From Plasmodiophora brassicae (Eukaryota; Endomyxa; Phytomyxea; Plasmodiophorida; Plasmodiophoridae): DNA of 64,000 bases. Numbering within the stretch: position 1 is the first letter of the stretch; every line of letters starts with the position of its first letter. The position numbers and the translations under genes were made by a program. The DNA is taken from assembly GCA_039704465.1 (NCBI GenBank), contig JASFAU010000004.1, forward strand, positions 930,001 to 994,000, in the 5' to 3' direction. Shown in pieces: positions 25,181 to 41,890 of the stretch. The notes under the pieces are model-generated. The model did not search any database and had not been told where the DNA came from. It was given only the letters and a program-made list of their open reading frames with translations.

Positions 25181-25803
25181 CCAAGGTGTTCAATGAAATC
25201 TATCCCATCGACCATGAAAACGCCAACGTGTCGTCATGGTCGATGGCCATATGCAGACGAGGTCGGTCCCATTTGATGATGTGCGCGAATACGACTCGTC
25301 AGGCGTGATAAGTGTGCGACCGAGAAAGCTTGGCGGCCAAACAAAAAAGGTTACATCACCATGCGGTTCCCCGGTGGTCCCCCTCCCGAGTACTGGACAG
25401 GCCAAAGACCATTTGGCTTCGCAATTCGGAATGAGATACGGCACATTCGGTCTTGTATGAACGTAACCGGATACCGCGACGCGGCAGGCGCCCTGTGACG
25501 ACGTGGTTGCATGCGGTTCTCAACAGGATGTGCAATAGAACAATGGGTGTCGAAACGGGCATGTGTGCATTCATTACCGGTAAATCGTCGTCATAGTTTT
25601 GGCCGGCTAGTGTGGCGATCGGTGACCCTCGTGGTTGGTTCGCGCAACGCCGCTTGCGACATAGCGGCCGATGAGCGTGGCGGTGGCTGAGCGATATGCC
25701 CGGCCCCACGCCAAACGTTTGATGGCATGGGGGGCCGGCATCTATGGAGAGATGGGTCGGGGAAACTACGATGGCCAAGTGAGCGGGCCGCGATTCGTGG
25801 TTG
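25181..25803. other. Intergenic region
   Basis: About 620 bases between trehalose phosphatase and the RCC1 gene. A 209-codon minus-strand frame covers part of it but overlaps the RCC1 first exon and shows no domain. No RNA gene or repeat seen. Confidence 0.4.
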
Positions 25804-38779: not shown

Positions 38780-41700
38780 TCAGAAGTTCTCGCGATGCAG
38801 TTTGAAGTACGTGTTCGTGATAGTGTTGCTGTGCGATTCACATGCCTGCCATTGGGTGGTCAGCGCTGCCGATATAAGTGTCGCGCTGACACACGCGAGA
38901 CGACCCACTTTCTTCAGGTCTTTGCCGATACGTGGGTTGCCGCAGAACGCGACGCCAATGTTCTGACCAACGTGCCTGCTGTAGACCTCCTCGAAGCGAG
39001 TGTCCCATTGCGGGCGCCCGTTGTATACGAGCACGTTCCCGAGGCGCGTAGGTCGGTCACTTGGGCATTTGAGAGCCAAAAGCATTTGCGACTCCGTCCA
39101 AGGTGCCGCTTTCTTCTCCACCGCGTCCGGACTGGCGCTGAGATGCGCCCCCCAGAACGCAATGTCGTCGGTGATCGCCGGCACCGCGTACGTGAAATGG
39201 CGAGGCGTCGACGTCACGTACACGTGGATCTCGAATGTCTTACTCTTCATCGACGTGTCCTTCAGCAGCGCGTTGTGTATGGCGTCATCGGCGTCCTTCA
39301 TCACGCGGATAAACCAGCGGAAGGAATCCAGCTCGCTGTGCGACACTATCCAGCAGAAGTACCTGAGATGGCGCAGCTCAGTACCTGGTGCTGACACATG
39401 TGTGGGCTCTTACGCGTGCTCAGGGAACGTTGTACCGATCGAGAACTTCCATCGATGGTGGACAATGGACCTCAGGGTTGCCGAGACGGGCTGGCACGAT
39501 TGGCGCTCCGTGTTAGAGGTTGCCGCTGCACCCTCCGTTTCCCAAACGGCTTACTGTGACACCGATGCCGGCCCCAATGATCATGTCGACGGTGTACTCG
39601 GCAATGTGCTGCGTTGGTGCAGAATGTGGGCCGTAGATGCAAAAGATCTGCTGTCCGTCTGGGCCGATCACTTTGCCTTTGCTTCTCGCATTGGTGAACT
39701 TGGCGTAGGACGCGTTAGGCGGTATCATTAGCTTCAGGTACTCGGTGACCTGTTGTTGTGCGGAGTGAGACATTCGGGGGGGCGTAACGGCCGCGTTGTT
39801 GCGCTGACCTTTCCCGTCCAGGAGCTGGGACCCATAACGCGCATGTGAACAGACACGTCCGCTTCCTGGGGTGCAGACGAGATCGTAAACGGATGCCACT
39901 GCCCGATGCTGACATGCGGGCAGTTCAGGAACAGGTACTGGCCCTCCTTGTATCCGTCAGGGAACGCACCATCTCTCTCGAACGTGATGCACAACACCTA
40001 TCACCACAGCCTGTCAGCGCCACCGGCCCATAGCCGAACGTGTCGATGTTACTGACTTTCCCCATGTTGTTGACGCTTGTTAAGGTGACGCTCCGATACG
40101 CAGATCGGTGCCGATAGATACGCTCGGCAATGTAAATCGTCATTGGTACGATGAGCCACTTCCAATAGTTGGGATTCAATCCCGTGCGCCCATGCGCCAC
40201 CAGCAGCACGAAGAACAGGACGAACAGGTGGTGGGTATTCCAGAACAGCTCGAACTGGAAGTGTTTGACGTTCGGCATCGCCGCCCCGTACATGAGCGCC
40301 ATGATGACAAAGATCGTTGTCCCGGACGCCCATGGCCAAATGCCAAACAGGGCCATCGTGTTCTGCACCGCGAACCCGTAGTTCAGACAATGGAAGAACG
40401 CATGGCCAACAGCGAAGATCAGGATTAGGTACGCAACGCGCTTGTGGAACGTCAATGCCTGTCGAGCAGACAACACATATGAACTCGCCCTGGAGCGCCA
40501 ACGCCAGTTGTCTGTACCTTGTCGAGCGGGAACACTTGCAGGACAGTACGAAGAAGTTTCTGGGTTGCCGTCTGCGACTGTGTCGACAGGTCGTACAGGT
40601 AGCGGATGAACGTGCGGCAGACGGGGATCAGGATGATTGCACAGTTGAAGTCGAGCATGTACCCGAACTGGCGCGAATCAAGAGCACACACATAAGGCGT
40701 TCGATAGAGACTCGGGAACAGGCGAGCCGTACCATTTTCGCGAACGGTACGAACATGGTGAGGGCGTATGGGGTCTGCTGCATTCCAAGGACGTTGTTGT
40801 ACCAGATGATGAAGCCGGATGTTCCGATAAGAACATTGGATGCGACAAACAGGATCACGAAGATGATAGTGCCCATACCGTTCTGCTCTTGCAGTCGTCT
40901 CAGGGCGCCTGAAGTCGCACGTACGATAAGCAAGTCTCAGGCAGGTTGGTGACCAAATCAATGTTGACCTTGGAAGCGGTATTTCAAGGAGGCCTGTGGC
41001 AATGCAGGTCCCGCCTTGGGCGAGCCGCCTTCCTGAAGGAACTGCTCCCCAAGTAGGGCGGATGCAAGGTTGGCGGCCGCAACAAAGAAGTAGGATACGG
41101 CGGCCATCTGGATCAGCTGCGTGTACATGAGCGGGACGGCGACCAGCGTGTACGTCACCGCACGTATCGGGACCACTGACAGGAACGGTCAGAATGTCGC
41201 TGCAGACGACTGGGTGATCCGCGCTTACTGGAATTCGTCCTGAGTATCCATCGCTTTTCGACGACGAACGTGGCGATGCCGATAAGCAGCCCGTAGATCG
41301 AGAGCAGCAGTTCGGTCCCTTCGACGTCGAAGTTGGGCTTGTCGCCAACGCAGGCCGCGATTTCGGCAATGGAGACGACGGCGACGACGACCCCGGATCC
41401 GAGGCCCATGTTGGTTGCCCATAAGCCGAATCGCGTGGGCGACGACACAAACTCTTCTTCAAACTCTGTGTACGCGCCATCAGCCGACCGCGGCGAACGT
41501 TCACTGCTACACGACATACGGCTCTTTGCTGGTTTGGTAGCGGCCGACTGGTATTTCTTCTGAGTCTTCACTGACGCAGGTGGACTGGGGGAGCCACCGG
41601 GCACGATCGCGTCTTGCGTTGTCGGCGGAGCAGCCGACGCCGCAGCGACCTCCTCGACAAAGTTCCCGGGAAAGTACCCGACCTCGCCTGTCGCACAACT

Positions 41701-41890
41701 GCGACCCTCCCACCTGGGCGTCGCACCGAATCAACAACTACGCGTTATACGAGCCCGTCAACACGTGGCACCATCCACTCTCGTCTTTGCGTATGATCTC
41801 AACGGTTTCGCCCTCTTTCAATGGGAGCTCGGTTGACGCCTGCGACTGGTATTCATAGAGCGCCCTGGCGATGCACGGCGCCTTGAGCAT
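38780..41890 (-). CDS. NOX: SH3 – p22phox-like – NADPH oxidase fusion
   Basis: Ten exons (41890–41751, 41713–41229, 41175–40969, 40908–40733, 40667–40518, 40458–40057, 39997–39809, 39749–39555, 39490–39436, 39384–38780) sum exactly to 867 aa. Residues about 5–70 are an SH3 domain ([24 protein letters not shown]). Residues about 130–270 resemble p22phox: four hydrophobic helices, with VEKRWILR and [14 protein letters not shown], then LLGEQF. From about 278 follows a gp91phox-type core: haem His pairs H391/H405 and H462/H475, FAD motif [16 protein letters not shown] motifs GAGIGVT and [14 protein letters not shown], ending FKLHRENF. It should pass electrons from cytosolic NADPH across a membrane to O2. 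Confidence 0.88.

Follow-up and report, generated by a model that had tools for sequence, protein, structure and literature searches.

Within a 64,000-nucleotide stretch of the Plasmodiophora brassicae genome (contig JASFAU010000004.1, positions 930,001 to 994,000; referred to as the window in the following), one gene on the minus strand encodes an SH3 domain, a p22phox-like four-helix unit and the core of an NADPH oxidase (NOX), in this order. Its product is likely to be a single-chain NOX2-like NADPH oxidase with its own SH3 domain and p22phox-like bundle, for which activity, topology and packing can be predicted, and the joining of the three parts in one gene is very probably real. The same order is found in a second gene of this genome, the paralogue, and in a database protein, P0003 (1092 residues, from a 3726-base contig), which holds all three parts in one chain. 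Another database protein, P0002 (785 residues, from a 3143-base contig), joins a p22-like unit to NOX without an SH3 domain, although its N-terminus is possibly incomplete. The first-pass annotation of the window had proposed a single gene and recommended a search for the same fusion in relatives; these proteins bear out the proposal and answer the search.

The gene extends from an ATG at 41890 to a TGA at 38780 and comprises 11 exons, which encode 841 residues (842 codons including the stop). Its introns (10/10) are all of the GT-AG type and measure 51-65 base pairs (bp), as the first-pass annotation had described for the splice joins; P. brassicae genes contain four introns on average, with a mean length of 60 bp (PMC4471660; here and below, literature statements refer to excerpts of the cited papers). 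The 868 codons counted earlier are not reproduced. The best model removes a tenth intron, in agreement with the relatives P0002-P0004. An existing public model, PBRA_003057 (579 residues, P. brassicae, 38780-40876), matches the NOX part apart from splice junctions. It starts at an internal methionine and keeps the 63-bp tenth intron as coding sequence, and thus needs to be re-annotated. We placed the junction 39413-39363 as in that model, and an alternative acceptor for intron 1 was rejected because it broke the frame. An 843-residue version was used for the Pfam search of the whole protein, the solved-structure comparison of its NOX and SH3 parts, the search and alignment that yielded P0002 and P0003, and the prokaryote genome search; the final model departs from it only near residues 660-673. 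The features of the gene are as follows:

41890-41751, 41698-41229, 41175-40969, 40908-40733, 40667-40518, 40458-40057, minus strand: exons 1-6 of 11
39997-39809, 39749-39555, 39490-39414, 39362-38909, 38845-38780, minus strand: exons 7-11 of 11
41647-41866, minus strand: SH3 domain, residues 9-64 (Pfam PF00018, E-value 1e-10; PF07653, residues 8-64), split by the intron 41750-41699
41437-41646, minus strand: Ser/Pro/Lys-rich linker, residues 65-134, with one PxxP (residue 84)
41033-41436, minus strand: p22phox-like unit of four predicted helices, residues 135-251, interrupted by the intron 41228-41176
40968-40909, minus strand: p22-to-NOX intron, 60-bp GT-AG, phase 1, holding an in-frame TGA that starts at 40960
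40877-40908, minus strand: conserved coding stretch before the annotated NOX start, alike in the paralogue and P0002
40874-40876, minus strand: ATG opening PBRA_003057, internal Met284 in the 841-residue model, Val in the paralogue and P0002
38780-40908, minus strand: NOX core (Pfam PF01794, PF08022 and PF08030)
38908-38846, minus strand: tenth intron, 63-bp GT-AG, retained as 21 coding residues in PBRA_003057

The C-terminal half of the SH3 domain and the first two p22-like helices share the open exon 41698-41229, so that the join between these parts needs no splice and the one between the p22-like unit and NOX is left to be defended. For the latter, donors were sought in the 120 bases preceding the TGA and acceptors as far as the ATG; the intron 40968-40909 was the sole in-phase GT-AG join 40-75 bp long that this yielded. 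The first-pass annotation had read the gap as such an intron and had argued from it that the p22-like part cannot easily be a separate gene. The intron stands, but at least one in-phase join also arose in 1134 of 2000 shuffled segments, and the join alone is therefore weak evidence. Together with the start of PBRA_003057 at ATG 40876, this control weighs against our reading and in favor of two adjacent genes, an SH3-p22 gene that stops at TGA 40960 and a separate NOX gene that begins at ATG 40876. We nevertheless consider two genes very unlikely, given that only 81 bases separate this TGA from this ATG, that the parts sit within single proteins in P0003 and P0002, and that conservation extends beyond the ATG. 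Just upstream of it, LQEQNG resembles IREDNQ in the paralogue (KIREDNQVG) and MREQNK in P0002 (MREQNKVG), with P0003 being less alike; these residues are thus conserved in two of three relatives, whereas the annotated start methionine is not. Moreover, the NOX exon of the paralogue is preceded by an in-frame stop and lacks any ATG ahead of NOX helix 1, although a short first exon could conceivably have gone unseen there. It is the paralogue and the relatives P0002 and P0003 that lift the one-gene join above chance.

The paralogue (C7:951130-954215) was found when the same genome, of 25.34 megabases on 21 contigs, was searched at the protein level. It comprises 13 exons encoding 800 residues, ends in LHKENF and joins its p22-like unit to NOX via a 56-bp phase-0 intron. 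Its match to the window gene is weak in the SH3-p22 part (E-value 0.004) and strong in the NOX part, with identities of 19/60 (SH3), 39/122 (p22-like) and 309/566 (NOX) aligned residues. By eye, the ALYDY motif of its SH3 domain is degenerate. In P0003, the linker between SH3 domain and p22-like unit is a long Gly/Met-rich repeat (GMGMGMGN...), which is absent in both P. brassicae genes. Within the genome, this search detected SH3, p22-like unit and NOX in that order in these two genes only. A database protein search with the p22-like region matched just P0010, an open frame of the window gene's exon, among the roughly 8000 candidates at most that each database search scored. Prokaryote genomes yielded 44 pattern matches with three distant NOX loci, which were not used further, and none of 78 pattern matches on viral contigs was confirmed.

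The assignment of the four-helix unit to p22phox is supported by profile, residue and model evidence. In a profile search of the PDB, its top matches were p22phox, and hhalign aligned it colinearly with p22phox over 104 columns, with none of 600 shuffles performing as well (the hhalign probability varies with the settings, 89.5 or 63.7). W140, Y182, E194, R208 and E247 are invariant in all four proteins (the window gene, the paralogue, P0002 and P0003), and in the profile alignments E194 and R208 correspond to the p22phox core residues Glu53 and Arg90. The match to the p22phox family that the first-pass annotation had proposed for residues 130-270 is thus seen at the profile level but not in direct family searches, which count against the assignment: none of the four proteins matched Pfam PF05038 (p22phox) at E-values up to 1, and none of the six matches in a single-sequence PDB search at this threshold was p22phox. 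NCBIfam gave no match for the p22-like part either. Furthermore, E194 and R208 are separated by 13 residues, as opposed to 36 between Glu53 and Arg90 in p22phox, a loop in which we presume the polybasic stretch of p22phox to lie; the unit lacks such a stretch. A conserved polybasic stretch has been described as a p22phox feature (Kawahara and Lambeth 2007, PMC2121648). Accordingly, one might regard the fusion as real but its four-helix part as an unrelated tetraspan module that merely resembles p22phox. We find this improbable in view of the top-ranking profile matches, the colinear alignment unequaled by shuffles, the invariant Glu53 and Arg90 equivalents and the fusion to NOX, the very enzyme served by p22phox. 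A full-length AlphaFold model, built from a three-row alignment, had a mean predicted local distance difference test score of 43.1 and was not used. Beyond the p22phox-like units of the two genes, a diverged separate p22phox may exist elsewhere in the genome; a six-frame PF05038 search found no match there, and it was uninformative, as 0 of 14 control genomes matched too.

As first proposed, the NOX core is equipped like a gp91phox-type enzyme, with sites for FAD and NADPH as well as four haem histidines. H386, H400, H457 and H470 were assigned by alignment to human NOX2 (101/115 and 209/222); they are invariant in a three-protein alignment, and the paralogue has the same motifs. The FAD motif HPFT (550-553), the NADPH motifs GAGIGVTP (637-644) and CGN (809-811) and the C-terminal ENF complete the set, so that haem histidines, FAD and NADPH domains and an aromatic C-terminal end place the protein in the NOX/ferric reductase superfamily. 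Ranked by E-value, human NOX2 (5e-44) is the solved structure closest to the core, followed by NOX5 (1e-35) and DUOX1 (9e-28). EF-hands, a trait of NOX5 and Rboh, are not among the seven Pfam families listed for the whole protein, and the p22-contacting TSST motif of NOX2, as read from the alignment, is not kept. It appears very improbable to us that the gene has decayed or is silent and does not function as an oxidase: it is open through 11 exons, none of its four haem histidines or of its motifs for FAD and NADPH has been lost, and its NOX part is identical to the paralogue at the 309 of 566 positions given above.

The SH3 domain had initially been likened to those of p47phox and NOXO1. In a search of solved structures, PACSIN3 and Src outscore p47phox, and judging by its sequence the domain is generic rather than specifically p47phox-like. 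Likewise, the combination of a PX domain and tandem SH3 domains that characterizes these organisers is not seen, as the protein has a single SH3 domain and no PX domain among the Pfam matches listed. The tail of the p22-like unit contains a +xxPxxP motif, KAGPALP (residues 257-263), at a place comparable to the p47phox-binding tail of p22phox. Such a motif is found neither in the paralogue nor in P0002, and P0003 has one only outside the tail; self-docking of the SH3 domain is speculative for this reason.

From these features, a working model can be proposed. The N-terminal SH3 domain would be cytosolic and be followed by the four-helix membrane bundle, which would end in the cytosol and lead via a short cytosolic linker to the NOX core. 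In the known complex, the four-helix p22phox has both of its termini on the cytosolic side, and its interface with NOX2 buries about 7400 square angstroms, mainly at transmembrane helices 3-5 of NOX (PMC9568551). As both ends of p22phox are cytosolic, a fusion of its C-terminus to the NOX N-terminus, about 30 linker residues apart, is topologically compatible. Most likely, the bundle lies against the membrane domain of NOX in the way that p22phox lies against NOX2; this packing in cis would ensure folding and stability at a fixed 1:1 ratio, presumably independently of a separate p22phox. Electrons would pass from NADPH to FAD, via the two haems and across the membrane to oxygen, presumably yielding superoxide. 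The SH3 domain most likely serves as a docking point that binds a proline-rich cytosolic partner or regulator and may thereby exert control; in the window gene, it could possibly bind the KAGPALP tail of its own p22 part. Overall, we think it most likely that an obligate heterodimer has been turned into one chain.

Several further loci deserve mention. Ferric reductases with apparent DOMON domains (labels assigned by eye) are present on contigs C11 and C6. The one at C11:252500-261500 shows apparent DOMON repeats; some 2.8 kilobases before its ferric-reductase match, the other strand has PX-domain matches. Contig C3 carries a NOX or ferric reductase, to which the fused proteins matched in tblastn with their NOX part only. 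At C1:187000-193000, a cytochrome b5 reductase-like gene lies beside two very similar tandem tubulin-like open frames (by eye). In the window, the sole Rfam match at gathering scores is a 5S ribosomal RNA gene (25348-25468, minus strand, 82.9 bits).

p22phox is treated as a separate subunit in the literature (PMC2121648; Zhang 2013, PMC3591440; Massari 2022, PMC9421330; the Dictyostelium review PMC5758549), and no description of a p22phox-NOX fusion was found in the titles, abstract starts and passages searched, a body of text largely outside subscription journals. Where p22phox originated has been described as unknown (PMC3591440). According to the Massari 2022 survey, only opisthokonts have p22phox and the cytosolic partners (PMC9421330); the Dictyostelium review, by contrast, names CybA as a p22phox homolog (PMC5758549). 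The covalent fusion of NOX with a p22phox-like unit in a member of Rhizaria calls the opisthokont-only view into question and hints that p22phox is older than this survey states. On balance, we favor the view that the fusion is a natural, conserved and self-contained oxidase with built-in p22phox and SH3 docking domain, carried in two copies by a plasmodiophorid and shared by at least one further organism, and that p22phox occurs outside opisthokonts and amoebozoans, either as an ancestral eukaryotic NOX partner or as one gained by transfer. As PBRA_003057, the public model of the NOX part, conceals the fusion, comparable ones may go unnoticed in other places. An oxidase in one chain also lends itself to structural studies and engineering, and provides a direct test of the role of p22phox when it is unable to dissociate.

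Compared with human NOX2-p22phox (flavocytochrome b558), the P. brassicae protein has a similar catalytic core, with sites for FAD and NADPH and four haem histidines, and a p22-type partner predicted to have four helices and cytosolic ends. It differs in being one chain instead of two proteins, in having its SH3 domain in cis, whereas the human system receives it in trans from p47phox, and in the much shorter loop that connects its equivalents of Glu53 and Arg90. p22phox is the common partner of human NOX1-4. In fungi, NoxA and NoxD/Pro41 are encoded by separate genes and are not known to be fused to an SH3 domain, unlike in P. brassicae. They nonetheless constitute a calcium-independent NOX and a membrane partner that is termed the fungal p22phox homolog (PMC9421330). 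In Dictyostelium, NoxA/NoxB and CybA represent NOX2 homologs and a p22phox homolog outside animals and fungi, but again as separate genes (PMC5758549). The Naegleria gruberi NOX also combines NOX and SH3 in one protein, but its SH3 domain lies within the NADPH-binding domain, and the excerpt reports no p22 part (PMC3591440). Finally, NOX4-p22phox, albeit consisting of two proteins and devoid of an SH3 domain, needs p22phox only (PMC9421330) and thereby provides a precedent for a minimal p22-plus-NOX unit.
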